From a virus, in the IMG/VR virus record IMGVR_UViG_3300047322_001237, positions 186,001-250,000 of that record: 64,000 bases of DNA; one strand, given 5' to 3'. Both the position numbers and the translations under genes were made by a program. Under the pieces are notes generated by a model that was not told the DNA's origin, made no database searches, and worked only from the letters and a program-made list of their open reading frames with translations. Positions 27,187 through 64,000 of this stretch are shown here, piece by piece (positions within the stretch are counted from its first letter, which is position 1; each line of letters begins with the position of its first letter).

Positions 27187-28509
27187 TTAGAAAAGGGCGG
27201 TCTTGTAATTCATGCGAGCCACCTGCAACGCGGTCCCGTGCATTTTCTTCATAAATAGAAGCAGGAACGTGTTTCCGTAGCCCGCGATCGCGGCGGAGAG
27301 GGCTGTGGGACTGAGCGCGAGCTTGTCGCCTACGCATACAGCGCAGTAGTCGGTCTTTTCCAGCTTGCAAAACATGGAGCTGCGCAAGAGGATTTTCTTG
27401 CCCATGTACTTGCCTGCGGCTTCCAAATCCGGGACCTTCTCGTGACCGTCTTGCGTCACGACGGAGAAACCCGGCAGCTTGTGGATGGAGTCGTTGTCTA
27501 CAAAGATCTCCAGGCCGAGACGAGCGCCGCAATCTTCCTGCGTCACCGTCATGTTCGACGAAGCACGCAGCAGCCACTTCACAGCCTCACCGCCAAGCAT
27601 GGTTTCCGCACCACGATTGAACGAGCCTGCCCGCAAGGAGTTGTTCATCGCCGGGAACTTGGTGATGTCCCAACCTTCGGCGAGCGAGTTCGTCACCAGG
27701 TCAACCTGAACGCCATCGCCCAATCCGGCTTCCGCACCGTGCATCAGGAATAGCTTCGAGCGGACGACGTCGTAGGATTTCCCCGTGATGAGGAAGTTGG
27801 CGCCCTCGTCGTCCTTCAAGTATTCCTTGTCGTACGCGATGAGCTTCTTCATGATGCTGGCGATGACGGCCGGATCGTTCAACCGGTCCTTGTTCTCTTC
27901 CAGCAGCTTCTTGCGCAGCTCGAAGATGCCGGGCGGCGCCTGCATCGTCTTGCGCGTCACGGCGGGCACACACAGCTGCGTGAAGCCAGCAAGGTAGAAC
28001 ATCGCGTCACAGAACTTCAGGTACTCGCTGACATAAAGCGGCGCGTTTCGGTCGCCTTCGTTCGGCGCTGTCTCGCCCGGCTTCAGGTCGTCGACCATTC
28101 GGCCGAGCACGTAGGCCTCGAGCTTCTCTGCGTTCACACGGCCCGTCAGGAACTCGACCTTCTTGCCGAATGGCCAGATGATCGCGGTGAAGTTGAAGAG
28201 CACGTTTCCGTAAGTCGTCTTCACGTCAGCGTAGACGTTCGGAACCTCGCCTTCCTTCAGATCGATGTGGTCCTTGATCTTGAGCGGCGGTTCTTTCGGG
28301 TCCGCGTCCTCGATCAAGGTCAGCGCATTGCCCTTCTCAGGATCCACAAAGAAATGTCCAGAAGGTGTCTGGACGATCCTGTACGGATATGGGTCGGACT
28401 TCCATGCCTCCATGCCTTCACGAATCAAGCTGAACGCCGAGATCACCCACGCGCGCCGTCGATACTCATCGGCCTGCATGGCCTTGAGGAAGAATGTCCG
28501 CTTATCCAT
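27187..28509 (-). CDS. RNA polymerase beta' C-terminal-like subunit (virion RNAP candidate)
   Basis: 440 residues from the ATG at 28509 (MDKRTFFLKAM). The last 65 residues carry YCAVCVGDKLALSPTALSAA followed by FMKKMHGTAL. This tracks the bacterial beta' segment CxxCxGxxLA ... LTMRTFHxGG around the trigger loop. By gene order relative to the helicase and the other polymerase pieces it sits where phiKZ gp80, a virion RNA polymerase beta' fragment, would be. That placement is from memory. If correct, it is packaged in the capsid to transcribe early genes. It overlaps the upstream gene by 8 bp. Confidence 0.6.
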   Translation of the reverse strand: MDKRTFFLKAMQADEYRRRAWVISAFSLIREGMEAWKSDPYPYRIVQTPSGHFFVDPEKGNALTLIEDADPKEPPLKIKDHIDLKEGEVPNVYADVKTTYGNVLFNFTAIIWPFGKKVEFLTGRVNAEKLEAYVLGRMVDDLKPGETAPNEGDRNAPLYVSEYLKFCDAMFYLAGFTQLCVPAVTRKTMQAPPGIFELRKKLLEENKDRLNDPAVIASIMKKLIAYDKEYLKDDEGANFLITGKSYDVVRSKLFLMHGAEAGLGDGVQVDLVTNSLAEGWDITKFPAMNNSLRAGSFNRGAETMLGGEAVKWLLRASSNMTVTQEDCGARLGLEIFVDNDSIHKLPGFSVVTQDGHEKVPDLEAAGKYMGKKILLRSSMFCKLEKTDYCAVCVGDKLALSPTALSAAIAGYGNTFLLLFMKKMHGTALQVARMNYKTALF

Positions 28510-29359
28510 GTTTGATGCCTGTTGTTTCCTTGATCTCGCACTTGAGCAACAAGTCACCGATTGCGATGTCGGCCTTGGTCAGGAGATCGAGGTCGTTGAT
28601 GAAGTCCTCGATGTGCGCCTTGATGATGGCGCGAGGATTTTCGTATCCGTCGGTCGAGATGATCGCCATCGACACGAGGTTGGCTGCGATGTTCTGCACC
28701 GGCATCCCTTCGAACGCACGGCCCACGAGATTCGCGTAGATCGTGAACGGATAGCCGAAATCGACCCCGCTCGCGATGTAGTGGTCCATGATGAGGTCGA
28801 GGCCACCGACGTGATTCTTGAAGCGTCGATAGGCGTCGAGGTACTTCTCGCGAACTGTCGAGTGCTCGTCCGGTTCCTCAAGCTCAACGCGCTCGTTTGT
28901 TACTTCGATGATCTTTTGGATCGTCCGCTGACTCACGCCGTGGATGTCCACCAACAGTTCTTCTGCAGTGTGGCTGGTCGTGACGGAGAGGATTTCGGCG
29001 AGCAGCTCTTCCGGGTGCAGATCCATCGCGCAGTGCTGCAGGATGATGCGCGGATCCTGATACGACTCGATCGCGTGAAGTCCGGTGAGCAGCGTGGTCA
29101 GGTGACTGACCCGCGCGTCTTCGCTCGGCTCGACACCCATTGCCTTGAGCAAGGTGACGAGAATCTCCCGTGTCGTGTCGTAGATGTGCTGGACGGTCTG
29201 ACCTTGATCGGTCCCGTCGTCCGTCATCAGGATCTCAACGAAGTCATCTGAATAGTCCGGCAACTGCAGCGCATCGAGTGCCGCGTGTGCTTCTTCAATT
29301 GTTTGGGTGAATTCGGGCGAGGCGGCTCCCGCCAGATAGTCCCGCAGAATGTCAATCAT
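28502..29359 (-). CDS. Conserved hypothetical phage protein
   Basis: 285 residues from the ATG at 29359 (MIDILRDYL). It is acidic and helical, with no signal, membrane span or motif. Its end overlaps the start of the polymerase-subunit gene by 8 bp, so the two are translationally coupled and may be functionally linked. The divergent region 29360-29521 separates it from the rightward gene. Confidence 0.62.
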   Translation of the reverse strand: MIDILRDYLAGAASPEFTQTIEEAHAALDALQLPDYSDDFVEILMTDDGTDQGQTVQHIYDTTREILVTLLKAMGVEPSEDARVSHLTTLLTGLHAIESYQDPRIILQHCAMDLHPEELLAEILSVTTSHTAEELLVDIHGVSQRTIQKIIEVTNERVELEEPDEHSTVREKYLDAYRRFKNHVGGLDLIMDHYIASGVDFGYPFTIYANLVGRAFEGMPVQNIAANLVSMAIISTDGYENPRAIIKAHIEDFINDLDLLTKADIAIGDLLLKCEIKETTGIKHG

Positions 29360-36022: not shown

Positions 36023-36664
36023 GTGAGCCTGCCGATAATCGAGCCGGGCGACATGATGCACGGCGTGCGAGTACGCGCGCCCTTCTCTCGCGATGGCTGG
36101 ATCTTTGAGATCAAATACGACGGGTATCGCGCCTTTATCCGCAAGCAAGCTGACCGCGTCGAACTTCTATCTCGCCACGGCACGGTCATGAATGCAGTCT
36201 TTCCGGACATCATCGAGGCCGTTAGCGCGGTGCCCGGAAACTTCATTTGGGACGCCGAGCTCACGGTCGACGAGAGTAACGGACGTTCTTCGTTCGAGGG
36301 CCTTCAACAGCGAGGGCGCTTACGCGTTCCGATGCGTGTCCGTGCAGCCGCGCGCGAGCGCCCTGCCCGTCTCTACGTCTTCGATATCCTCGCCTCCGAA
36401 GATGACGACCTACGACAACTCCCGCTCGACCAACGAAAGGAAATCCTCAGAGACACGTTCGATGACAACTCGGTGCTGATCTACGCAGGGGGAATCATCG
36501 GCGCCGGTGAATGGGTCTTCGAGCAGGCGCAGAAACTCGACCTCGAGGGCGTCATGGCGAAACGCCTCGACTCGCTCTACGTGGCGGGTCGCTCCCATGC
36601 ATGGCAGAAGGTCAAGAACCTAGACTACAGCCGCCCTGCTGCTCTCGGTATCGGTCGCCGGTAA
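36023..36664 (+). CDS. Minimal ATP-dependent DNA ligase (adenylation domain)
   Basis: 213 residues from a GTG start. Motif I is KYDGYR with catalytic K31, motif III region DAEL (77-80), motif IIIa LYVFDIL (117-123), motif IV EGVMAK (175-180), motif V WQKVK (194-198). The protein ends soon after motif V, so the C-terminal OB-fold of usual ligases is missing. It resembles the ligase domain of LigD-type enzymes. It could seal nicks in replication or end joining, perhaps needing a partner for DNA clamping. No Ku gene is in the window. Convergent with imuA, whose stop is 3 bp away. Confidence 0.82.
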   Translation: MSLPIIEPGDMMHGVRVRAPFSRDGWIFEIKYDGYRAFIRKQADRVELLSRHGTVMNAVFPDIIEAVSAVPGNFIWDAELTVDESNGRSSFEGLQQRGRLRVPMRVRAAARERPARLYVFDILASEDDDLRQLPLDQRKEILRDTFDDNSVLIYAGGIIGAGEWVFEQAQKLDLEGVMAKRLDSLYVAGRSHAWQKVKNLDYSRPAALGIGRR

Positions 36665-36666
36665 CA

Positions 36667-37380
36667 CTACGCGCCGGTCGCCGCGAGGATCGATTGCATC
36701 GCCGTTGGCGCAAGCGTCCTCGCAGGCTTGCTGGAACGTCCATAGGGACTGAGCAAGATCGGCGACGGCTTCAGTGCTAAATCGAAAGGCTCGACACCGA
36801 TGGGACCTTTTCGCTTCACGATGTTGACCGAGACGCCGTCGGCTGCTGGCCGGATGGCGAGTCGCAGCGACGCGGGCGATGTGTCCTGCTGCACGGCAAG
36901 CGGACGGAAAACGAAAAACAGCATCTCCGACGACTGCGAGACCAGTAACAGACGCCGCAGCGATTCGGGACGCATGTGCTGCTGCCACAGTAAGACCGCC
37001 CCGCATGTATTCGCCTTCAGTATCTGCTCAGTCGACCAGAGCACGTCCGCCGTCTTTTCGACCTCCAGCCGAATCAACTTCTCCGGCGGAACGCCGATAT
37101 ACGCGAGTCCCTGGACGTTCGGAACATGTGGCGGTTTGATTAATACAACAGGCCGTTTCGCCACCGTGGTCAGCGCCGGCTGCAACATGCGCACTTCGCC
37201 GATCCCTGGCTGTTGGACTAGCAGTTCGACCAAGGTGCCAATCGGCCACCCCCCGCCAGGCAATTCCGCCGATAGCCGGTCGTAGCCGGTGTCGACCGTG
37301 CGCCCTGCCCTTCTTGCCAACTGGTTACCGCGCCAGAGGGACGGGTGGATTTCTTCAATGTCCTTGGGAAGTGCTGACAT
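36667..37380 (-). CDS. imuA: ImuA-like translesion synthesis accessory protein, SOS-regulated
   Basis: 237 residues from the ATG at 37380 (MSALPKDIEEIHPSLWRG). A longer frame from 37563 would place the LexA box inside the coding region. Family hallmarks are LPGGGWPIGTLVELL, GIGEVRML, CGAVLLWQQ, LRRLLL and VKRKGP near the C-terminus. ImuA is a RecA-like partner of the ImuB-DnaE2 mutasome. Here neither imuB nor dnaE2 is adjacent, so it must work with host proteins or do something else. A perfect-format LexA box lies 15 bp upstream, so host SOS should induce it. Confidence 0.85.
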   Translation of the reverse strand: MSALPKDIEEIHPSLWRGNQLARRAGRTVDTGYDRLSAELPGGGWPIGTLVELLVQQPGIGEVRMLQPALTTVAKRPVVLIKPPHVPNVQGLAYIGVPPEKLIRLEVEKTADVLWSTEQILKANTCGAVLLWQQHMRPESLRRLLLVSQSSEMLFFVFRPLAVQQDTSPASLRLAIRPAADGVSVNIVKRKGPIGVEPFDLALKPSPILLSPYGRSSKPARTLAPTAMQSILAATGA

Positions 37381-37395
37381 CGTCGCGCCTAAACA

Positions 37396-37411
37396 CTGTA
37401 TAGATGTACAG
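37396..37411 (-). promoter_or_regulatory. LexA (SOS) box for imuA
   Basis: CTGT-ATAGATGT-ACAG fits the CTGT-N8-ACAG LexA consensus of beta- and gammaproteobacteria exactly. It sits 15 bp above the imuA ATG and overlaps the likely promoter (a TATACA hexamer on the minus strand), so LexA binding would block transcription. Confidence 0.85.
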
Positions 37412-37601
37412 TATCCTACACCCTTTTTCGCGGCGCATCGTCTACCACTTAGGGAACCGCTTGGAGAGACAGTTAGTTGCGTGGTGAAAACCACAAAAAA
37501 CGTATCATTCATTACGTTTTGGCGCCGTGACTGTCTGCCAACCTCGGCCGACTTCCGGATCACGTCAAAGAACGCTTGCCAGCGGCCACTTAGTTCTTTT
37601 T

Positions 37602-37690
37602 CCGTGAAACATTCCCCGCGAGCTGCCGCCGACGCCTTGATTTAGAACAAGTTGGCGCCTTCGAAAATTTGTCCCGAGTGTTTCACGGGA
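37602..37690. repeat. parS-like half-sites in inverted orientation
   Basis: CCGTGAAACATT (37602-37613) and GTGTTTCACGGGA (37678-37690) are inverted copies of TGTTTCACGG(A/G)A. The core GTTTCACG is half of the conserved chromosomal parS palindrome TGTTTCACGTGAAACA. They lie upstream of parAB, where a centromere is expected. Only half-sites are present, so identity as parS is inference. Confidence 0.5.
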
Positions 37691-37835
37691 CGTCATTCGA
37701 ACTTAAGACTACTTCGAGGTTCCACGCCCTCTTCCCCGCCCTGCTTGACCGACAAAAAGTGACAGTACAGCGAAGTATACTTGCTCTGCCCTTGTTTACA
37801 AGCTAGAGTTCGACACAATTCGGTCGTGCGCCGCA

Positions 37836-37875
37836 TTCTTCGGTCGAAGGTGATTTTTCGAAAAACCGAAGAATC
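37836..37875. promoter_or_regulatory. Inverted repeat, candidate parAB operator
   Basis: ATTCTTCGGT (37836-37845) and ACCGAAGAAT (37866-37875) form a perfect 10-bp inverted repeat ending 21 bp above the parA start. Type Ia ParA proteins autoregulate through such sites using their N-terminal DNA-binding region, which this ParA has. Confidence 0.55.
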
Positions 37876-37896
37876 CACAACAAAGGGGAACCTCTC

Positions 37897-39099
37897 GTGA
37901 ATGCAAGCACTCTGCTCGCCAGCGGCCTGCCGCCGGCGCTTGACTACGCCGCGTCCATGGACACATTGGCTGATGTGTCCGCCCGTGCCTCGGGTGTTCT
38001 AAATCAGATCCGCGATCGGATGCTGGAACCATATCCGCGCAAACGCCCGCCCACGTTCACGAGCGCACAGGTGGCCGGCCTGTGCGGACTTGAAAAAATG
38101 CGTTTCCAGTATCTGACTACGAAAGGCGATCTCCCCACCGGCACGTCGATTAAAAATGGCAAGAGCAAAGTCTTTACGTTGGAAGAGACACTACGGTATA
38201 TCCGGGCTGTCGGCAATCGCCCGCCGCGACCAGAGAACGCTCCCGGCAAAGTTGTGACGGTGGCCAACTTCAAAGGCGGTGTGGCTAAGACTACGACGGC
38301 CGTCTCGCTCGCTCAGGGACTCACCTTACGCGGTCGTAAGGTTCTCGTTATCGACTGTGATCCCCAAGGCACCGCTACGCAGTTATGCGGCTTCTCGCCC
38401 GAAACGGAAATAGGCGAGGAGATGACGCTCATGCCTTTGATCTACGGCGATGAAACGAGACTGGACTACGCAGTCCAACAAACCTACTGGCAGGACCTAG
38501 ACCTGGTCCCGGCGTCTTCCGGTCTCTTTAGCGCTGAGTTTCATATTCCGGGCAAGCTGGCCACCGACCACAAGTTCGAATTCTGGAACATCTTGAATCA
38601 GGGCCTCGAAGGCCTCAAAGACAAATACGACGCCATCGTCATCGACACTCCGCCATCTCTAAGTTATCTGACGATCAATGCGTTGATGGCGGCGAACGGA
38701 CTATTGATGCCCTGCCCGCCCGAGGGGCTCGACTTTGCCAGCTCCACTCAGTTCTGGTTCCTCTTCACCGAAATGTCGAGGCACGTTCCAGCAATGCGTG
38801 AGACGAAAGACTTCGATTTCGTCAATGTCGTGCTCACGAAATCGAAGAGTGACGACCTTTCCGGCGTTGTACGGGGCTGGCTGCAAAAGGCCTACGGAGA
38901 TCGAGTCCTTCCGTATGAGATTCCCGACTCCGTCGTCCCGAAGAGCGCATCTGCTCAACTCTCTACCGTCTACGACCTTACCAAGCCCGAGGGCAGCGTG
39001 GCAGCCTACACCCGCTTCAAGGATCCGATGGATCAGTTGGTGAGGCACATCGACTCCCAGTTTGTACAGGCTTGGGCGTCTTCCATGTTGGAGGTCTAA
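37897..39099 (+). CDS. parA: ParA-type partition ATPase (type Ia, with N-terminal HTH)
   Basis: 400 residues from a GTG start with AAAGGGGA upstream. Residues about 50-108 look like a MerR-like winged helix (FTSAQVAGLCGLEKMRFQYL). The Walker-type P-loop is KGGVAKTT (126-133) with the signature lysine, followed by the DCDPQGTAT and VIDTPPSLSYL motifs. This is the plasmid P1-like class: an ATPase that moves plasmid copies and represses its own operon. It overlaps parB by one base (TAATG). The type and the gene order parA-parB-rep match large plasmids of Burkholderiales. Confidence 0.93.
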   Translation: MNASTLLASGLPPALDYAASMDTLADVSARASGVLNQIRDRMLEPYPRKRPPTFTSAQVAGLCGLEKMRFQYLTTKGDLPTGTSIKNGKSKVFTLEETLRYIRAVGNRPPRPENAPGKVVTVANFKGGVAKTTTAVSLAQGLTLRGRKVLVIDCDPQGTATQLCGFSPETEIGEEMTLMPLIYGDETRLDYAVQQTYWQDLDLVPASSGLFSAEFHIPGKLATDHKFEFWNILNQGLEGLKDKYDAIVIDTPPSLSYLTINALMAANGLLMPCPPEGLDFASSTQFWFLFTEMSRHVPAMRETKDFDFVNVVLTKSKSDDLSGVVRGWLQKAYGDRVLPYEIPDSVVPKSASAQLSTVYDLTKPEGSVAAYTRFKDPMDQLVRHIDSQFVQAWASSMLEV

Positions 39100-40094
39100 T
39101 GCGCGCCGCTCAAAGACTTAGTGAAAAGATTGGTGACATCGACATCCCAGAACCCGGTCAATCGCCGGCGGCCGGTGATCCGTTTCGTCCAAGGACGGCA
39201 CCAGGTGGAGCGCTCGCCTTTCAGCATGCAATGCGCGAGAAGCAGGCCGAGCTCGACGCGATGTCCGCACAGCTGGCCGAACTGCAAGCTCAGAAGCAGA
39301 CGAACTCGCCCAGCGGCGTCGAGATTCCCCTCGACCAACTGCATGAAGTCGCAGGTCGCAGACGCTACATGCCGCCGGAAAAGTACAATGAATTGCGGGA
39401 AAACCTGCGGAACAACAAGCTGATTCAGCTGCCCGTCATTCTGCCACGTGCAGAAGGTGGCTTCGAAATACAGTCGGGACATCACCGGATCGACGCTTAT
39501 CGGGAACTCGGGCGTTCGACCATTCGCTGTGTTCTGGGTGACGCGACGGGCGATGAAGCTGACGACGGCGCGTTCTGGGCCAATCTGATGCAGTCGGACC
39601 TGACTGACTATGAGAAGTACGTTGGACTGACGCGCGTACATTCGAAACATCCGGAATTGGGCCAAGTCGAGCTAGGCGAGCTCGTCGGCATTAGCACTTC
39701 CCACCTCAACGCCCTGCTCTCTTTCGGTCGTTTGCCTGAGCAGGCCCGCGCGATTCTCGATACCAATAAGGCGATCATGGGCGCGAACGCGGCCGCGGCT
39801 TTTGCGGCTATCGCGGAGGCCGGCAAGGCGGAGCGGGTTGTGGAAGCGGTACGACGTCTCTCCGAGCGGGAGCTAGATCAGGCGCAGGCGGTGAAGTTTG
39901 CAAAAGCCGTTGAGACGCCCAAGGCAACGAAGCCGGCTGCTGAGTCGTACAAGGTGAAGACCGGAAAGAGTACGTGGTGCGATGTGCGCAAGACGAAAAA
40001 CATCATGCGCATCGAGTTCCAGTCCGAAGAGGTGGCCAATGCCGTCCAAGAAGCCATCAAGCAAACCCTCGAGGCGCTCGCCGCAAAGTCCTAA
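39099..40094 (+). CDS. parB: ParB-type partition DNA-binding protein
   Basis: 331 residues from the ATG at 39099, overlapping the parA stop. An upstream in-frame start at 39072 would lie inside parA. The N-terminus matches the ParA-interacting region. A ParB/Srx-like domain spans about 90-160, with GHHRIDAYRELG in the CTP-binding box position. A helix-turn-helix region follows (VELGELVGISTSHLNALLSF). The C-terminus is a dimerisation-type domain. It binds parS and loads ParA. The hairpin at 40169-40201 terminates the operon. Confidence 0.92.
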   Translation: MRAAQRLSEKIGDIDIPEPGQSPAAGDPFRPRTAPGGALAFQHAMREKQAELDAMSAQLAELQAQKQTNSPSGVEIPLDQLHEVAGRRRYMPPEKYNELRENLRNNKLIQLPVILPRAEGGFEIQSGHHRIDAYRELGRSTIRCVLGDATGDEADDGAFWANLMQSDLTDYEKYVGLTRVHSKHPELGQVELGELVGISTSHLNALLSFGRLPEQARAILDTNKAIMGANAAAAFAAIAEAGKAERVVEAVRRLSERELDQAQAVKFAKAVETPKATKPAAESYKVKTGKSTWCDVRKTKNIMRIEFQSEEVANAVQEAIKQTLEALAAKS

Positions 40095-40168
40095 ACGCTA
40101 AGTGCTTGATTCTTTTGATTTCCTTAGTACGGAAAAAGGAGACGGCAGTGAAATAGCTGCTAGAAACA

Positions 40169-40201
40169 CGAAGGCCCCCAGCTGGAAACTGAGGGCCTTC
40201 G
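40169..40201 (+). terminator. parAB terminator hairpin with CTGGAAA loop
   Basis: CGAAGGCCC (40169-40177) pairs with GGGCCTTCG (40193-40201), and an inner CAG/CTG closes a CTGGAAA loop. It is followed by CATAAGTGG, not a U-run, so it may also act as a protein or RNA target. Confidence 0.55.
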
Positions 40202-40258
40202 CATAAGTGGGCTTGGCTGGAAACCGTCGCTCACTACACTCCCAAGCTGGAAACTTGG
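40179..40258. repeat. Three stem-loops sharing the loop CTGGAAA
   Basis: Loops at 40182-40188, 40217-40223 and 40247-40253 are all CTGGAAA, closed by CAG/CTG, GG/CC and CCAAG/CTTGG. The flanks differ while the loop is fixed. Spacings are 35 and 30 bp. They lie between parB and rep, where plasmids keep origins, iterons or antisense control RNAs. Function unknown. Confidence 0.55.
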
Positions 40259-40345
40259 AAGGGTACTTCGTCAACCCCGAGTGTAGCGAATAGCGATCGA
40301 CAGTCAAGCAAATTCAATCCATTTTTGAGAAATGGACCGCTCGAC

Positions 40346-41434
40346 ATGTCTATCGCGCAACAGCTCGTTGCTGGCGAGGGTGAAACACACCCCGACGATT
40401 CAGCAGCCCTCACCGCTTTCCGGTGTGACTCGACAAACCTGCCTTGGGTCATCTTCCGGGCTGCGTTCCGTGCAGCACACATTGAGGAGATCCCTCCTCG
40501 CGCACGTGCGGTTCTTTCCGCCCTCGCCCGCACCGTCGACGCCGCCAAGCCGTTCGCCGCGATCTTCGCTCGTCGTGAACTGCTCACAGGACGCGCACTG
40601 CAATCCATGCGCACCTTCTACCGCAGCCTCGATGACTTGGAGTCCGCCGGTCTAATCGATCGCCGCGCTCAATCCCGCTACGTTGAAGCCGGTCTCTTCG
40701 GTCGTGCCTACATCCACCTCACCGCGCGAGCAGCCGAGCTTCTAGGGCTCGTTGAGTCGATGCAACCGCCCTCACCTGAGCCCGTCGAATCTTCGCTTCC
40801 GCATCCGTCTGCCAACTTGGCAGACGGTGGAATATATAAGGATCTAAGCCCTTCTGTTTTTCAAAAGAGACAACCGGGGCAAGTGCCTGAGGATCTCCAG
40901 CGTCTGCGGTCCCTGGGTTTTTTTGATTTCTTGATTTTCAAACTCATGCGGGAAGCGCGTGAGCATGGCAAACGTCTCTCGGATGTCGTGGAAGCAACAT
41001 GGGACCACCTGAAGCTCGCCAAAGCCCCAATCAACTACCTGCGGAGTCTGCTGCGGGGAACGGTTGATTTCGCTCACCAACTGCGCGCCAGGATTAACGT
41101 CAAAGCCGAGGAGCAGGCTCGGGTGAAGCGCACCTTGGAAGCCGATCAGGTAGCCCGTCAAAGCGCCGGCAAAACGTTCCTAGACGCCTCGGGGGCACGC
41201 AAGTACGTGATCGATGCCGACGGCGAGAACATGGTCGTCTACAACCGTGACGAAGGCATTGGTCGACAAGCCGCGGGTTGGAAAGAAGGTTTTGCTGCAG
41301 CGCTCGCTCGAGGTCAGATCCGTGCGGCGAGCAGCTACGTGCAGCCGGAGCAGGGCAGGGAACGTCCGCCAGTTACAGCACAGGTTCGGGAACACATCGC
41401 GGGACTGCGCAGCCTGCTGGGAGCTCGTCGCTAG
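40346..41434 (+). CDS. Plasmid replication initiator-like protein (RepO/winged-helix type)
   Basis: 362 residues from the ATG at 40346. A TTG at 40325 would add seven residues, and neither start has a strong ribosome binding site. The N-terminal half has a winged-helix pattern (RARAVLSALARTVD ... RRELLTGRALQSMRTFYRSL ... LESAGLIDR) as in plasmid and phage replication proteins. The C-terminal half is helical and basic. It stands directly downstream of parAB, the usual place for rep on Burkholderiales plasmids. I infer origin binding and helicase recruitment. The cognate origin may be the repeat region upstream. Confidence 0.75.
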   Translation: MSIAQQLVAGEGETHPDDSAALTAFRCDSTNLPWVIFRAAFRAAHIEEIPPRARAVLSALARTVDAAKPFAAIFARRELLTGRALQSMRTFYRSLDDLESAGLIDRRAQSRYVEAGLFGRAYIHLTARAAELLGLVESMQPPSPEPVESSLPHPSANLADGGIYKDLSPSVFQKRQPGQVPEDLQRLRSLGFFDFLIFKLMREAREHGKRLSDVVEATWDHLKLAKAPINYLRSLLRGTVDFAHQLRARINVKAEEQARVKRTLEADQVARQSAGKTFLDASGARKYVIDADGENMVVYNRDEGIGRQAAGWKEGFAAALARGQIRAASSYVQPEQGRERPPVTAQVREHIAGLRSLLGARR

Positions 41435-44101: not shown

Positions 44102-45631
44102 TTACATTGCATTGGGGATAACGACTGACGAGTACGCCAGTGCGCGAGTTCTAAGCAATTCCTGATTCTTTTGCTGATACGCCATGTGCTTCTCGACGTC
44201 GGCGCAGTAAAAGGAAATGCATTCAGGCGTCTTTCCCGTCTTCAGCTTTCGAGTCCGGCCAAACATCTGCAGGATCTGCTGCTGACTGGAGATCGCCACG
44301 GACATGATGTTCGTGGTGAGGTTCGGGATGTCGACCGCGGTGCCTGCCGAGATCGGTGTCGTGACGCGGATGTCCGCTTCGATACAGTTCTCGAACGGGT
44401 CCTCTTCCACGTAACGACGCACGTCCAGGTTCGGATACTGCTTCTGCAGGAACTCCGTCACGAGCGTGCAGAATTCGATCGACGCGCAGAAAATGATCGC
44501 CTTCTCAGTCGGCTGATACGTCCTCAGGTACTTCGCCTTAAGCACCTGGTCAATCAGGTTGAGGTAGTTCTTCAGGACAGGCGGGTTCTTCATCAGGTAC
44601 TTCTCGAACACATGGTTCGAGTAGTTACCTTGCATGTCCTTGGTGCGGATGGCGTCAGGCCGCGCAATGCGGTAGAACAGGGCGGTCGCATTGGTGTAGC
44701 GGTCGTATGCCGGACCCTTATGGCGGTCAGGGGACGGATACGCGATCTCATACATCCGCTGGATGAACGCATCTTCCTTGTCGAGCGTTGCGGACAACGA
44801 CAGCGACTTATGGCAGTGCGTGTAGAGATCCACCAGGAAGTTCAGGTGAAAATCCTGGTGCACTTCGTCGATGAGGCGGAACCCCGATCGCAGCGTTTGC
44901 ATCAACTCCGATGGACGACATGCATAGCCCATCTCAAGCGTCTGGTCGCCGTACTCCTTGTAGAGTTTGAACCAGTTCTGGATCGTCTTGTTACTGATCA
45001 GGACGATCTTGCTCGTAAGCCGACCTTCGAGCGCCATCTCCAGAAGCGCCATCAGATGATCGCTTCCGCGGATGATCATCAGGTCTTCAATCGCGATGTC
45101 GAACACTTCGCGGATTTCGTCACGCCACTTCTCCAGATACATCGGCTTCACGATGATCACCGGAGCAAGGCGCGTCTTCGCCACAGCAAAGAGCGACGTT
45201 ACGCCTTTACCTTTACCCGTCTGAAACTCGATCAGCTTCGAGACCGAACCGTCCTCCTTGAGGACGTAGTCGACGCCTTCATCCTGATAGTCGTGCAGGT
45301 TCCAGCTGTCGAAGATCTTGAAGTCAACTTCTCGAACCGGCGGCAACTCGACCTGCTCGATGTCGACGAGCGAATCCTTCAGGTTGTGAAACGCGAGGTA
45401 TTCCTTGAATTTCTTCAGGACGTTGATGTGATAGCGATACTCACCAGTGTCAGCACAATGCGTCGCATAGACCGGAGGCTTCGGAGGCGGCTTTGTCGAA
45501 TAAGGACTCGGCTTGGCGCGAAGGGGCTGCACGAACTGCTTGGTGAATCCGAGCACCGCGGGCATGGCGCGCGGCGTCACCTTGCTGACGACGAAGTGAT
45601 GCGAATGAAGACGAATCAGAAGTTCAGCCAT
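44102..45631 (-). CDS. SF2 DNA/RNA helicase (UvsW/DEAD-like)
   Basis: 509 residues from the ATG at 45631 (MAELLIRLHSHHF). The P-loop is the variant TGKGKGVT (138-145), motif II is DEVH (255-258), motif III SATLD (280-284), and motif VI QQQILQMFGRTRK lies near residue 455. The N-terminal 100 residues are a phage-specific extension. It probably remodels replication forks or recombination intermediates like T4 UvsW. It follows the RNA polymerase genes in the same order as I recall for phiKZ gp74-gp75, and is the last gene of that core unit. Confidence 0.8.
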   Translation of the reverse strand: MAELLIRLHSHHFVVSKVTPRAMPAVLGFTKQFVQPLRAKPSPYSTKPPPKPPVYATHCADTGEYRYHINVLKKFKEYLAFHNLKDSLVDIEQVELPPVREVDFKIFDSWNLHDYQDEGVDYVLKEDGSVSKLIEFQTGKGKGVTSLFAVAKTRLAPVIIVKPMYLEKWRDEIREVFDIAIEDLMIIRGSDHLMALLEMALEGRLTSKIVLISNKTIQNWFKLYKEYGDQTLEMGYACRPSELMQTLRSGFRLIDEVHQDFHLNFLVDLYTHCHKSLSLSATLDKEDAFIQRMYEIAYPSPDRHKGPAYDRYTNATALFYRIARPDAIRTKDMQGNYSNHVFEKYLMKNPPVLKNYLNLIDQVLKAKYLRTYQPTEKAIIFCASIEFCTLVTEFLQKQYPNLDVRRYVEEDPFENCIEADIRVTTPISAGTAVDIPNLTTNIMSVAISSQQQILQMFGRTRKLKTGKTPECISFYCADVEKHMAYQQKNQELLRTRALAYSSVVIPNAM

Positions 45632-45697
45632 AATGAACCTGCATAGAACGGAGGAAGGGGATTGCGCGGACGGTTGCAATCCCCCGCACTACGATGC

Positions 45698-47689
45698 TTA
45701 TGCGCCGTTACGTTCCAGATGCTCGAAGACCTCGCGCGGACAGAGCGCGACGTCAAACGGGTGATCCATCCGGTTGGTACTGATGAAGCTGATCGGGTCG
45801 GTGATGGCTTCGCGGTGATCCTCGAAAGCCATCGTCGCGGAAAGCGAACGCGACAACATCGAAAGCGACATCACACCGAGACCTTCATCGGTCCAAGGCT
45901 TCGGCAAGCTGTAGTCGCCGTCCTCCGCCGAAACAATCATCGCTTCGTAGAGAACGACATCAAGCACTGTGAGGTTCACGTCAAGCTTGCTGTTGACCAG
46001 GTCGTACAGTTCGATCAGGGCGTCATCCGGCCTGACGTTCTTGTCCCGGTCTTGCATCATCTTGACGCTCGACTCCAACATCTTCGCGATGTCACGCGAA
46101 TGGTCCGACATGTTGAAGTGCTTGAGGGGAAGCGCCAGAATCGGCAGCGACCAGTCCCAATCCCTCATATCGATGACGTAATTCCCGGTTTCCGTATCGA
46201 GATCCCAGCCGACGCGCCGAATGTGATGCAAGAGCGAATGCGTCATCGAAGCTTTCCGACCGCTCACCGCCGTCAGGATGTCGACGCCTTCCGCCTTCCC
46301 GTATTCGCCGACCAACAGCCCCACGTACTCGAGCTCCGAGAAGCGCGCGATGTTGAGATTGTCGGGATCGTCGATCTCGTTCACGTCGTTCAAATTCGGT
46401 GCAGACTCCGCCGCGATCACCAGCTTCACCGGCAAGTCCTTCAACCGATCCGCCATGAGATACGAGTTGTCGTCCGACCCCACCTTCAGGTACAGCTTGT
46501 CCGCATCCCGCAAGACGATGGCCTCGATCGATGCCGAGCTGTCCAAGTGCTTAACCGACAGCACGGACTGCGACGACTTCTCGGTCAGCAACATGCAACA
46601 CATGTGACCGATGTTCGTGAAATCCGGCACCGAGTTGGCGAGTTCGCCGAAGCACGTCGAGCACACGCCGACAGGATCGGGATGTGCGCATCGCATGACC
46701 GAGCGAACCCGAACCGTCTTACCGACCAGATGCTCGTCCCCCTTGCGGAGGATCTTGAGCTTGTTCTCCTTTTCGTCCAGATAGAACTTGCCGGCGAGAC
46801 GCCCCAGGTCCTTCTTGCGCATCGGCCACTTCACGTACTTGGTCGTACCGCAATCCCCCTTATGCAGGTTCTGCACGTTCATGGACATGAGCTGCAGACG
46901 ACGCGAGAAGTACTCGGCCTGCTGCAACGGCGCCTTCGAGAAGATCAGCGATTTCGCGGCCGAACGGGATTCGACCAGCGAGTCGCGGAAGTTCCGATAG
47001 CCTTCGGTATAGCTGCGCAGAATCGGCAGCTCGAAGACGTTCGAGTCGATCTCGGTGACGCGACCGCGAGCGGACACGCACTGGAGCAACTGATCGAACT
47101 TCACCGTACCCGCACGCGCGGCAAGCGCGAGCGGATTCTTCTTCAGATCGACGCCGCCCTTGATCACTGCGCCGACGGCCTGATAGCTGTCCTCGAGCAT
47201 CTTGTCCGTGACCTTCTCCAAGGGCACCGAGAACAACGGCTTCTTCGCCTCAATGATCTTCGGATGGTCGAGCATCTCGATGAAGTCAGTGATGTCGAGC
47301 GACACCACGTATTCTTCGAGTCGGTACGAGAGCTCGTTGTACATCTCGTTCGTGATCTCGTACGTGCGCTTGGCCAGTCGGTCGAGCGTGACTGCCGGAT
47401 CGCCGTGATAGGCGTCAAACGTATCCCACACCACGCTGGCGAGCAGATCCAGGTGCGTGTTGGAGCCGAGGCGCTTGTCACCCAGCACCGAGAGAACGTG
47501 ATGCTTCTTCAACACCGGCGTCTGGGGAAACTCGCGGTGGAACTGCCAAACGTATGAGCTGTAGATGGTCGAGCGGAAGTCGACCTCCATTTCCCCGTCG
47601 TCGAACACACAGATGAACGACCCCCAGAGCGAATTCCACAGATCCTCTGTGCTCATTCCGATGAGAGTGCGCGCGCTGATGCGTCTCAT
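45698..47689 (-). CDS. RNA polymerase beta' C-terminal subunit (non-virion RNAP)
   Basis: 663 residues. The segment GVCSTCFGELANSVPDFTNI followed by GHMCCMLLTEKSSQS and SVKHLDSSAS tracks the bacterial beta' region CxxCYGxxLA ... AAQSIGEPGTQ ... FHxGG that precedes the trigger loop. This is the C-terminal half of beta'. The catalytic N-half is a separate gene at 60545-62074. The nvRNAP made of such halves transcribes middle and late genes in the infected cell. A hairpin (47709-47732) separates it from the beta gene above. Confidence 0.8.
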   Translation of the reverse strand: MRRISARTLIGMSTEDLWNSLWGSFICVFDDGEMEVDFRSTIYSSYVWQFHREFPQTPVLKKHHVLSVLGDKRLGSNTHLDLLASVVWDTFDAYHGDPAVTLDRLAKRTYEITNEMYNELSYRLEEYVVSLDITDFIEMLDHPKIIEAKKPLFSVPLEKVTDKMLEDSYQAVGAVIKGGVDLKKNPLALAARAGTVKFDQLLQCVSARGRVTEIDSNVFELPILRSYTEGYRNFRDSLVESRSAAKSLIFSKAPLQQAEYFSRRLQLMSMNVQNLHKGDCGTTKYVKWPMRKKDLGRLAGKFYLDEKENKLKILRKGDEHLVGKTVRVRSVMRCAHPDPVGVCSTCFGELANSVPDFTNIGHMCCMLLTEKSSQSVLSVKHLDSSASIEAIVLRDADKLYLKVGSDDNSYLMADRLKDLPVKLVIAAESAPNLNDVNEIDDPDNLNIARFSELEYVGLLVGEYGKAEGVDILTAVSGRKASMTHSLLHHIRRVGWDLDTETGNYVIDMRDWDWSLPILALPLKHFNMSDHSRDIAKMLESSVKMMQDRDKNVRPDDALIELYDLVNSKLDVNLTVLDVVLYEAMIVSAEDGDYSLPKPWTDEGLGVMSLSMLSRSLSATMAFEDHREAITDPISFISTNRMDHPFDVALCPREVFEHLERNGA

Positions 47690-47708
47690 TTGTTTTCCTT
47701 GTTAAGCG

Positions 47709-47732
47709 GCCCGGCCGATGAGCTGGCCGGGC
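47709..47732 (-). terminator. Intergenic hairpin between beta and beta' genes
   Basis: A perfect 8-bp stem, GCCCGGCC/GGCCGGGC, without a following T-run. It more likely attenuates or marks RNA processing than fully terminates. Confidence 0.4.
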
Positions 47733-47740
47733 GGTCGTCT

Positions 47741-49990
47741 TCAATGAGTGAGTGCTGCTTGCTGTTTTGCCAGGTTGCCGCTACGGCCTTTCCAAGACGG
47801 CGAGTAGGGTCGATAGACGAACTGGACGCCAGCGCACGCGAGGATGTGCTTGACCAACTGCAACGGACGCGAGTTGCCGTACGGGATGACCGAACGATCA
47901 ACGGCGTTGTGGATATTGGTCGGCTCGTCTGCATCGAGAATCGCGTTACAGACCATCTCGTGCGTTTGCGGATTGTTGTTGCGATCCATGACCTCGGCCG
48001 ATGCCCGCGGTCCAACGTACGATGCCAAGATCCGCTTTTCCGCCTCGCCCCATGCACGAATCGACTGTGCACGGTAGGGCAGGGCGTACTTGTCGGCGTT
48101 GGTCACCTGAGACAGGACACCGTAGTGCTGAACCTTGCCCGACGACACGGCCGTCCAGTCGTCCGCGATCTTTTCCAGCAGGATGATGTACACGCTGCCA
48201 ATCCGCACCGGGACCTTGGTCGTCACGCGTCGACCAGAGTTGCCGACGTAAGTCACGGGACCGTACGTCGACGGATAGTTGGCTTCGAGCATCCGAACGA
48301 TGTCACTCGACTCGCGCGGGTTGTTCGTCGGCAGATGCAGATAGATGCCGTTGCGAATCACCTGAGCCAGGTGTTCCGCACGCGTCTTCAGATACGCACC
48401 ACCTTCAAACCACGAGTGCATGACAGGTGCCACGATTTCGTAGTAACCCATCAGGTAGTTCCACGCGTGATCGAACACCGGCTTGTTGCTCGCCTCGAGT
48501 TCCTGCGCCTTCGCCAATGCCTGACGATCGTTCTCCGCGATGCCGAACCATGCACGAATCTGCTTGGCCACGTCACGCGAATGTGCGTTGATGTAGATCT
48601 CGTACTTGCGGCCGAGATTCATCCGCGACACCGTCGAGTTCGGGTCCATCACGATGTCTGCACGATTGCCATCCGCGTCGACCGGCATGTGATCCGCGGG
48701 CACGACGTTACAGATCACGCCCTTACCACCGTGCGTGTCGGTCAGCTTGAAGCCGATCGTCGGCGTGACGTCGTACTCGATCGTGAACTCGATGCGCCAG
48801 TCATCCAGCGGAGCCTTGCGATACAGCTTGTAGATGCGCTCCTTGGATTCCTGGACCACGGACAGGGCTTCGACCACGAGACGATGGAACTCCGGCGTCA
48901 GACGCAGGGACTCCTTGCGCTCGCGCTCAAGGCGTCGCCATTCGTAAACGATGTCCGAGTAAAACTGACGACGCGCCCGATCGTAACGATCAGCCTGAGC
49001 ATCCATGCCGATCGGCGTCGGCGAGTTGTTCGCCTGCGTATCGTGATGAACACGGATGTCGATCACCCGGCCGCCTGCACCGTCTGCGTAGATCATCTTG
49101 TCAAAAACGTGATCGATCTCCATCAGGTCGTACGTGCCTTGCTCGACGATCGCCAACTCGCGGTCGTAGCTTTTCGGATCCTTGTCGTGCGGACGCAGTG
49201 CCATCAGCACGCCGTCTTCACGAACGAATTCACCGATGTCCGGGAACGCCTTGAAGTTGTCCTCGTCACCGTACAGATTCAGCGGGTAGGCCTTGGCGCC
49301 AAATTCGACGACACGCGTCTCGTACTTCTTGAAGCCGAATTCTTTGAGCACCTCCGCGCTGATCATGATGCCGTCCTCAGAGGTGGCCGGATGACTCATG
49401 TACGCGATGTTGCATTCACGCCCGTACTTGTAGCCGCCCGTATCCGTCACAGAGGGAGAATCCGTGAGGATCGTGTCCGCCTTCAGATAGCTGCCCACGC
49501 GGATGTCGGAAAGCGAAGGCTTGATCGCGTTCCGGAACCCGAAGTAGCTGTGATACGACGTGTGCGTCGTGATGTTGATGCAGCCGATCTCCTTCGTGTG
49601 CACGTTCTCGTAAATGAGCACGCTGTGCGGGTTGTCCTGGCGGCGCTTGAGCACCGTGTCCTGTCCGAACGTTTCGCGATAGCGGTCGATCACCTTGATC
49701 ACTTCGCAGTCGACCGGCACCTTCGTCGAGAAGGTGTACTTGCCGAATTCACGTTCCGTGCCGCTCTGGCAGCGGCGCTCGGTCGAGCCCTTGATCACGA
49801 GACATTGACCGACGTGCGACGAAAACATCTGTTTGCGGGCAGCCGAGTTATGGCCGTCCCACGGGTTCAACCCGCAAACGTTCATGAGCTCCGGGTCCAG
49901 CTCATTCGGTTCTTCCAGCAGAACACCCGAGCGACGAATCGCGGATGTCATGGGCTTGATGCTCGCAGTCAGACTGGCGGTGTCCATCAT
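47741..49990 (-). CDS. RNA polymerase beta C-terminal subunit (non-virion RNAP)
   Basis: 749 residues, with two adjacent possible start ATGs. THGGKGV (419-425) with HMPVDADGNRADIVMDP (434-450) and SRMNLGRKYE (455-464) is the conserved beta segment HGxKGVxxxxxPxxDMPxxxDGxxxDIxxNPxxxxSRMxxGQ that lines the active site. SEDGIMIS (204-211) matches the beta EDAIIIS motif. The N-terminal half of beta is not in the window and should be another gene, as in phiKZ. Promoter motif CATATCAC lies 79 bp above. Confidence 0.87.
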   Translation of the reverse strand: MMDTASLTASIKPMTSAIRRSGVLLEEPNELDPELMNVCGLNPWDGHNSAARKQMFSSHVGQCLVIKGSTERRCQSGTEREFGKYTFSTKVPVDCEVIKVIDRYRETFGQDTVLKRRQDNPHSVLIYENVHTKEIGCINITTHTSYHSYFGFRNAIKPSLSDIRVGSYLKADTILTDSPSVTDTGGYKYGRECNIAYMSHPATSEDGIMISAEVLKEFGFKKYETRVVEFGAKAYPLNLYGDEDNFKAFPDIGEFVREDGVLMALRPHDKDPKSYDRELAIVEQGTYDLMEIDHVFDKMIYADGAGGRVIDIRVHHDTQANNSPTPIGMDAQADRYDRARRQFYSDIVYEWRRLERERKESLRLTPEFHRLVVEALSVVQESKERIYKLYRKAPLDDWRIEFTIEYDVTPTIGFKLTDTHGGKGVICNVVPADHMPVDADGNRADIVMDPNSTVSRMNLGRKYEIYINAHSRDVAKQIRAWFGIAENDRQALAKAQELEASNKPVFDHAWNYLMGYYEIVAPVMHSWFEGGAYLKTRAEHLAQVIRNGIYLHLPTNNPRESSDIVRMLEANYPSTYGPVTYVGNSGRRVTTKVPVRIGSVYIILLEKIADDWTAVSSGKVQHYGVLSQVTNADKYALPYRAQSIRAWGEAEKRILASYVGPRASAEVMDRNNNPQTHEMVCNAILDADEPTNIHNAVDRSVIPYGNSRPLQLVKHILACAGVQFVYRPYSPSWKGRSGNLAKQQAALTH

Positions 49991-62512: not shown

Positions 62513-64000
62513 TTACTGGTTGGACCAGCGGCTGAAGCCAGCGCGGGCGCCGTACTGCTGTTGTTGCGGGTGCGCGAAGCCGCGGTTGAACACCGAGCCG
62601 TTCATCGAGCCCGTATCCAGACCAGCCGACACTGCGTACGGGTTCACCGCGCGCTCGTACTGGTTCAGATCCGTCATCGGGGCGATGGTGCGCACCGACA
62701 GACCCGTGTCCTTGCATGCGTTCAGCAGCGCGACGATGAACGCCGGCTCGAAAGTCACGCGGCGTGCGAAGCCGGTGAACTCGACGTTGTTCTTGCCGAG
62801 GATGCCTTCGATGATGTGCTTGCGCTTCGCCAGACGAACTTGCAGGTCCAGGTTCGTGCGTGCGAACGTATCCGACCATTCGCGTGCAACTTCCGGATCG
62901 CGATCGCCGACCATGTTGAGCACGGCCAGGTAGTCGATCTCGCGGAGGTCGCGCTTCACGCCGTGACGGTCGACGTACCAACCCAGGTGGATGCGGTTGA
63001 ATTCGTCGGACGCCACGCGGCCGCCGGCCTGGAAGTAACGGCTGAAGTTGCCGTGCGTGAGCACGTTCGCCGCGCGGATGATGATTTCATTCGCTTTCTG
63101 CCAGTTGTTGCCGCTCAGCTCAGCAGCTGCTGCGAAGATGCCGTTGAACCAGGTCTGCGGACCGCACTCGGGCACGTCCAGCGAGAGGATGAGCTTCGGC
63201 GTGATGACCGAGCCAACCAGACGCAGGAGGTGGTCGCTCGTCTGACCTTGACCGCGCTGGAACGCATCCGACTTCGTGTCGACGCGCGAGCCGAAGCCGT
63301 TCGGGTTCTTCTCGAAGTTCGCTTCGATGCCGATGGCGCCGATGTCCTTCCAGTCGATTTCCGCGCTGTTGCTCATCGGTGCCGGACGGAATGCCTCGAC
63401 CCATGCGTGGTTGTCGGCCAGCGTGAACGCCGTCACGAGCGCCAGCAGCTGCGCCGGAATCGTGAGCAGCTTGACCGACTCGAGATCGGTCATCACGAAA
63501 CGCGGACGGTAGCGCTTGAACTCGTCCGGCGACGACGGCTGAGCCGTCTGCTGGACCCACGGGTCGAAGCGTTGCGTCTGCTGTTCGGTCGGCGCCCACA
63601 CGAGGTCCATGTAGCCGCTGATGCGCGAGATCTGCGACACACGCTGGGTCACGCCTTGCTGGCCCGGGATTTCCTGCCCGCCTGCGCGGAAGTCGATGAC
63701 GATGTCCGAACGGATCGGTGCGCCGACCATGTCACGCGACTGGCCGTTGCCGAACGTCGGCTGAACGGTCAGCGAGTTCTCTTGCTCGACGGTGCCCAGG
63801 TCCAGGTCCTGGAAGCCGCCCGGCTGACGCACTTCGAGTTCGGTCTGGCACGCCGTTGCAGCGTTCGCTGCCAGCTCGTGAACCAGCGTCACGTCGTCGA
63901 CGTTGAAGTCACGCGGCACCACGCATGCGTCCACCGGCCAAATCGGCATGCCCGGGAACGTGCGCGACACGGCGGCGAGCACTTCGTCCGACAGCGTCTT
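62513..64000 (-). CDS. Abundant-type core protein cut by right edge; nucleus shell (ChmA) candidate by position
   Basis: At least 495 residues. The frame is still open at 64000, and the GTG at 63982 need not be the start. Soluble, with no membrane span or catalytic motif. The last 35 residues are Gly/Asn/Gln-rich and probably flexible. It lies directly upstream of the beta' N gene with a strong terminator of its own, the place of phiKZ gp54, the chimallin that builds the phage nucleus (about 600 residues). The flexible C-terminal tail also fits chimallin, which interlocks through such tails. Identity is inferred from order and length only. Confidence 0.5.
   Translation of the reverse strand, partial: KTLSDEVLAAVSRTFPGMPIWPVDACVVPRDFNVDDVTLVHELAANAATACQTELEVRQPGGFQDLDLGTVEQENSLTVQPTFGNGQSRDMVGAPIRSDIVIDFRAGGQEIPGQQGVTQRVSQISRISGYMDLVWAPTEQQTQRFDPWVQQTAQPSSPDEFKRYRPRFVMTDLESVKLLTIPAQLLALVTAFTLADNHAWVEAFRPAPMSNSAEIDWKDIGAIGIEANFEKNPNGFGSRVDTKSDAFQRGQGQTSDHLLRLVGSVITPKLILSLDVPECGPQTWFNGIFAAAAELSGNNWQKANEIIIRAANVLTHGNFSRYFQAGGRVASDEFNRIHLGWYVDRHGVKRDLREIDYLAVLNMVGDRDPEVAREWSDTFARTNLDLQVRLAKRKHIIEGILGKNNVEFTGFARRVTFEPAFIVALLNACKDTGLSVRTIAPMTDLNQYERAVNPYAVSAGLDTGSMNGSVFNRGFAHPQQQQYGARAGFSRWSNQ

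Follow-up and report, generated by a model that had tools for sequence, protein, structure and literature searches.

We analyzed a 64,000-nucleotide stretch of viral DNA (the window), corresponding to bases 186001-250000 of the 278,988-base IMG/VR record IMGVR_UViG_3300047322_001237, which carries at 37412-41434 a plasmid-type partition and replication module made up of the genes parA, parB and rep, all on the plus strand, and of noncoding DNA at 37412-37896 and 40095-40345. The first gene, parA (37897..39099), encodes a 400-amino-acid type Ia ATPase of the ParA/SopA/RepA kind with an N-terminal extension and the P-loop NFKGGVAKTTT. An earlier note, made from the letters of the DNA alone, had read a KGGVAKTT P-loop and an N-terminal HTH in this gene. 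Its product matches Pfam AAA_31 (2e-37), and the NCBIfam RepA/SopA-type ParA model aligned to residues 24-394. The second gene, parB (39099..40094), encodes a 331-amino-acid centromere-binding protein of the ParB/RepB/Spo0J type, with matches to the TIGR00180/Noc models, to PHROG ParB families and to solved ParB structures. Base 39099 is common to the parA stop codon TAA and the parB ATG, i.e., the two genes do overlap by one base, as had been stated. The locus shows the features of a type Ia ParABS system: a ParA with an N-terminal DNA-binding extension and a deviant Walker P-loop, a ParB, and, in cis, a parS that is a candidate only.

The third gene, rep (40346..41434), encodes a putative initiator of the Burkholderiaceae "replication protein O" plasmid family, and the start codon kept across all its relatives is the ATG at 40346 rather than the TTG at 40325. 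We assign this identity because the plasmid orthologues of Rep are annotated "replication protein O", and in the Burkholderiaceae plasmids that we inspected these orthologues come after parA-parB. No Pfam, NCBIfam or PHROG family matched Rep. The comparison of ParA, ParB and Rep with plasmid and phage databases, which the earlier note had proposed, found plasmid kin, with Rep matching none of 50,697 phage records. That note had also described Rep as a winged-helix initiator; its plasmid orthologues uphold the initiator, and the winged helix is plausible but weakly supported, by an AlphaFold model (predicted local distance difference test score, pLDDT, 65; predicted template modelling score, pTM, 0.32) in which the N-terminal arrangement is winged-helix-like with low confidence.

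Repeat-rich noncoding DNA had been claimed on both sides of the module. Our analysis identified a candidate parS pair before parA and a structured leader with repeats before rep, and nothing repeat-rich beyond rep. The candidate parS (37602..37688) consists of inverted CCGTGAAACA ... TGTTTCACGG located 5′ of parA. Its half-sites, CGTG(A/G)AACA and TGTTTCACG, are inverted and keep a constant offset of 79-80 nt in five phages in which the intervening DNA has diverged, and eight TGTTTCACG sites occur in the five parA upstream regions versus none expected by chance. This half-site pair is the best candidate for parS. The structured rep leader (40169..40336, plus strand) lies between parB and rep, and is predicted to fold into a hairpin with a GCTGGAAAC loop and a long-range stem GCTTGGCTG/CAGTCAAGC around a second hairpin, with a TCCATTT/AAATGGA hairpin immediately 5′ of the rep start. 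Nine base pairs of this fold show double-sided changes, none of 500 shuffles matched its covariation score, and the z-score of the structure is -6.15. The leader is common to phages and host plasmids (37 distinct sequences), and recurs as a conserved structured RNA on many plasmids and chromids of Burkholderiaceae; a search of Rfam returned no match to it. Within the leader are three exact, iteron-like GCTGGAAAC repeats on the plus strand, at 40181, 40216 and 40246 (span 40181..40254). The repeated loop words of the leader vary from replicon to replicon, and these repeats may serve as an iteron-like or RNA-based, replicon-specific address for copy number and incompatibility.

The record shares 127 identical bases between its two ends, which indicates a circular assembly. 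Homologues of chimallin, PhuZ, terL, portal, major capsid, protease and tail sheath are present both in this record and in two isolate-derived genomes described below, with chimallin matching at an E value of 9e-32 in the record and at 7e-17 and 1e-36 in the isolate genomes. The non-virion RNA polymerase is represented by homologues of phiKZ gp55, 71, 73, 74 and 123, and the virion RNA polymerase by homologues of gp80, 149, 178 and 180. Judged by this gene content, the carrier is genuinely a jumbo phage of the phiKZ-like type that encodes chimallin (Chimalliviridae), with the virion and packaging genes (terL, portal, major head protein, protease and tail sheath) complete. The earlier note had placed the module among phage RNA polymerase and virion genes, and homologues of gp074, gp071/073 and gp080 do lie on its flanks. 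The left-hand phage border of the insertion locus is a virion RNA polymerase subunit gene (gp080 homologue, 27187..28557), and the right-hand border is a phage helicase gene (gp075 homologue, 44102..45679), beyond which lie the genes for non-virion RNA polymerase subunits (gp074 and gp071/073 homologues, 45698..49990) and for chimallin, the phage nucleus shell protein (gp054 homologue, 62513..64000, continuing past the window end at record positions 248516-250504), all on the minus strand. No integrase of the kind that an integrating prophage would carry was found in the 278,988-base record.

The same arrangement recurs in independent assemblies. In Paraburkholderia adhaesiva ZD32-2, the module is present on the phage's own 284,264-base contig (contig 5), which is collinear with the record, and in Paraburkholderia sp. 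BCC1886 it is present on a 286,074-base contig (contig 11) with a 125-base end overlap; the latter strain had been purified by several rounds of streaking to single colonies, and SPAdes was used for its assembly (PMC6706693). In all three of these complete genomes, the homologues of phiKZ gp075 and gp077-080 flank the module. The gp075 side of the same insertion locus is seen in the IMG/VR contigs L016 and L017, where the module is beside the same RNA polymerase genes (RNA polymerase 64% identical), and in the metagenome contig L019, which also carries the module. The record numbers of L016 and L017 are of isolate type, and two records of this type, L018 and L020, are identical to Caballeronia arationis LMG 29324 and Paraburkholderia sp. 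BCC1886. Amino-acid identity in the phage core is down to 57-63% between carriers, and there is no composition step. The relatives in cultured Burkholderiaceae are intact, replicon-sized contigs, one of them circular, and may reflect the extrachromosomal residence of a phage-plasmid. Such carriers are rare, since P. adhaesiva and C. arationis were the sole ones among 399 sampled Burkholderiaceae genomes with a full-length phage RNA polymerase, and when a whole-plasmid version was sought in PLSDB, this polymerase had just fragmentary or cellular matches. C. arationis LMG 29324 also holds a phage contig, to which no par-rep was assigned. The module is absent from the corresponding locus of the lytic relative Burkholderia phage FLC9, which has an ordinary gene run instead, and neither a ParA nor a Rep of this kind occurs in any part of the records of the large metagenomic relatives L021 and L022.

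The DNA of the module matches 149 plasmid records, which is far beyond chance. Its ParA is 90% identical to that of three other phages, and the closest ParA proteins outside phages, at 64-68%, are those of Caballeronia and Paraburkholderia megaplasmids and chromids. Burkholderiaceae plasmids and chromids with the order parA-parB-"replication protein O" are the source of the module. In the tree of Rep, the window protein falls with those of C. arationis plasmid contigs, and one of these contigs has conjugation-like genes. Strain LMG 29324 contains four contigs (L114, L115, L116 and L117) with a Rep 85-86% identical to that of the window, in addition to the phage contig, i.e., closely related replicons coexist in one strain. 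In both the Rep and the ParA trees, the phage sequences do not form one clade and are placed in more than one plasmid clade, a pattern that shows exchange of the module between plasmids and phages. Partition genes have also been swapped inside a close phage lineage, since L019 and the window phage share an RNA polymerase that is 97% identical and a ParA and ParB that are only 47% identical (Rep 78%); this swap is as incompatibility would favour.

Strong purifying selection acts on ParA, ParB and Rep, with ratios of nonsynonymous to synonymous divergence (dN/dS) of about 0.05-0.25, and a decayed insertion was rejected on the basis of these ratios and the intact frames. The values are dN 0.05 versus dS 1.1-1.3 for ParA and dN 0.09 versus dS 1.3 for ParB. 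When the window phage is compared with that of P. adhaesiva, ParA (90%) and ParB (82%) are among the most conserved proteins (median protein 57%). At dS values of 1.1-1.6 synonymous sites are near saturation, so this conservation reads equally as extreme constraint or as an older exchange of ParA and ParB.

The acquired block reaches to the left of the module, through imuA and a ligase-domain gene (36023-37411). The translesion-synthesis-associated imuA (36667..37380, minus strand; NF033429, 215 bits against a cut-off of 150) is also present in the BCC1886 phage and in C. arationis plasmid contigs, and no copy was seen in the phage of P. adhaesiva. Its promoter contains a LexA/SOS box, CTGTATAGATGTACAG (37396..37411), with the core CTGT-N8-ACAG, of which there are just two in the 279 kb genome, this one included. 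A LexA-boxed imuA lies inside the captured block in 2 of the 3 complete phages, and each of the three has LexA-like boxes near parA. The ligase gene (36023..36664, plus strand) encodes a LigD-type ATP-dependent DNA ligase catalytic domain and is likewise present in the BCC1886 phage and in a C. arationis plasmid contig; its product, of 213 amino acids, is apparently truncated past the nucleotidyltransferase domain. At the same locus (L069:10683-13139; contig 190.7-193.1 kb), the P. adhaesiva phage encodes an oligonucleotide cyclase of the cyclic-oligonucleotide-based antiphage signalling system (CBASS) type (2.8e-81). An AbiJ_NTD3/Abi_C protein comes next, and an SRAP protein is also encoded, so this jumbo phage carries both defence and SOS cargo. 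The SOS box of imuA, the SRAP gene and the LexA-like boxes near parA hint at a damage signal for switching.

Several other features of these genomes were observed. A tyrosine-recombinase frame (459 amino acids) and a 743-amino-acid frame adjoin the module in L017 (L017:1382-4973), and a Caballeronia plasmid likewise has an integrase next to parA. The dnaB gene of the BCC1886 phage contains a group I intron (RF00028, 80.7 bits; L085:1651-1960), and a virion RNA polymerase subunit gene of this phage (G003:C11 134344-140186) probably contains a second, with an inserted 339-amino-acid frame, the two halves being adjacent in protein coordinates. In the 544,877 bp metal-resistance plasmid of Cupriavidus sp. 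USMAA2-4, a short gene (L023:19950-20615) is 44% identical over ~160 residues to the phage RNA polymerase beta-like subunit, and appears to be a relic or a captured piece of such a phage. The only HTH_3 protein of the record, matched at 267 kb, was considered as a repressor and rejected, since the match is just the tail of a protein with a lysine/alanine-rich H1-like N-terminus fused to HTH_3, which is encoded near PhuZ (record 267082-267240; also L187) and also in the L019 contig. GC skew was used to look for the origin, and its minimum lies ~2 kb from rep in the P. adhaesiva phage (G001:C5), and not in the other two complete genomes.

What we observe is an intact, selected module of plasmid origin, held at a fixed position in divergent complete phages and swapped between phages and plasmids, with sister genomes in isolates. 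The window phage is very probably a phage-plasmid that belongs to the nucleus-forming jumbo phages (Chimalliviridae), temperate as a low-copy plasmid, with intact genes for both a replication initiator and partition. The earlier note had likewise interpreted this DNA as a jumbo phage-plasmid, and independent synteny, the phiKZ-like gene set and intact contigs in cultured Burkholderiaceae support it. With somewhat less assurance, we consider it likely that the whole lineage is temperate, alternating between a low-copy plasmid prophage (ParABS and Rep) and a nucleus/PhuZ lytic cycle, trading incompatibility modules with megaplasmids, and carrying host-benefiting SOS-linked and defence cargo (imuA; CBASS-type cyclase, SRAP).

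The roles in replication and segregation are assigned because of the anatomy of the module and established plasmid biology; autonomous replication, a stable prophage state and SOS-linked switching are our inferences. An ancestor would have captured the backbone of a Burkholderiaceae replicon of megaplasmid or chromid type. After entry, the ~280 kb genome would circularise and be kept as a low-copy plasmid, with Rep, its expression set by the structured leader, starting replication at a local origin, and with ParA, together with ParB on the parS 5′ of parA, segregating the genome, so that an integrase would not be needed. A switch to productive growth would then bring in the virion and non-virion RNA polymerases, the chimallin nucleus and PhuZ.

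Weighing against a phage-plasmid are the fold of Rep, which is not recognised (a PDB sequence search gave one weak match, and Foldseek on the model nothing), and the repressor, since a search of the record for CI/LexA-like proteins found no classical one (no Peptidase_S24). In addition, virulent chimalliviruses without such modules are also present in bacterial assemblies (PMC12768965), and because of this, presence in an isolate is by itself no proof of lysogeny. The alternative that survives best, although we judge it unlikely, is that these are virulent phages persisting in a carrier or pseudolysogenic state, like phiKZ and Seoulvirus-type phages, with par-rep as accessory cargo of little help or as a mere stabiliser. 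Pseudolysogeny has been described for phiKZ (PMC3564109), bacterial assemblies have yielded >300 Seoulvirus genomes, for which no maintenance mechanism was reported (PMC12768965), and the lack of a repressor in the record fits such a state; however, an intact, selected par-rep lies at the same site in every complete or locus-spanning isolate-linked genome, and this module has no evident use beyond replicon maintenance.

Very improbable, in our view, is a role of the module in lytic growth or in competition, for example by positioning phage DNA or by displacing host megaplasmids and chromids through incompatibility, rather than in plasmid inheritance. ParA and Rep do match host chromid systems, and partition genes swap among close relatives as incompatibility predicts, but Rep and its leader are kept together with parAB, and FLC9, L021 and L022 manage without any of the module. 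A chimeric assembly join of a host plasmid to a phage, against which the earlier note had wanted its reading checked, has a negligible probability and was rejected, since although the module is of host-plasmid type and some draft contigs end near it (for example, the 143,740-base contig of C. arationis), the join recurs with identical synteny in at least five assemblies that are independent and have diverged flanks, one of them a circular isolate assembly, and there is no composition step.

On the best reading, these are the first phage-plasmids among nucleus-forming jumbo phages, a group regarded as obligately lytic. Two recent reviews on jumbo phages make no mention of temperate members. We found no description that joins chimallin with phage-plasmids in the literature searched, which was without subscription papers or preprints, so that a prior report elsewhere is possible. 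The maintenance module offers a concrete mechanism for the persistence of jumbo phages in bacteria, and raises the question of how a phage with its own RNA polymerase and nucleus can stay silent and be sorted like a chromid. It also bears on the safety of phage therapy, with regard to cargo transfer, and on replicon exchange between megaplasmids and viruses.

Compared with known systems, the window phage shares chimallin, PhuZ, both multisubunit RNA polymerases, terL, portal, major capsid and tail genes with phiKZ-like phages such as FLC9 and phiKZ. FLC9 is the closest cultured phage by RNA polymerase (55.6% identical), and differs in lacking the module. Like the phage-plasmids P1, N15, phiKO2 and POI1126, the window phage is a phage genome with ParA and ParB, and with predicted plasmid maintenance in place of integration; its ParA is 29-33% identical to those of N15, phiKO2 and POI1126. 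The known phage-plasmids with ParA matches are mostly <60 kb and unrelated as phages, none among those listed is a nucleus-forming jumbo phage, and the Rep family is missing from all of the phage records searched. The phage-plasmid as a kind is known already, and its occurrence in the nucleus-forming group is what is unexpected. With respect to RepABC plasmids, ParA aligns over its full length with RepA, but membership was rejected because ParA scored 214 bits against the RepA cut-off of 348 and Rep is not recognised as RepC. The module has the same gene order as Caballeronia sp. SL2Y3 p1, a Mycetohabitans endofungorum plasmid and the C. arationis plasmid contigs (ParA up to 68%, Rep 53-86% identical). 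Burkholderiaceae parA-parB-"replication protein O" replicons share the rep leader RNA, and some have imuA with a LexA box; with homologous ParA, ParB and Rep, the same order and the leader, the module belongs among them, and unlike those plasmids, which have no phage core, it lies inside a complete phage genome. Bacterial assemblies often contain Chimalliviridae, above all Seoulvirus, and Seoulvirus and "Bapsvirus" are nucleus-type jumbo genomes found whole beside bacterial contigs (PMC12768965), as is the case here; unlike in those phages, in which the cause of persistence is unknown, there is here a dedicated maintenance module.

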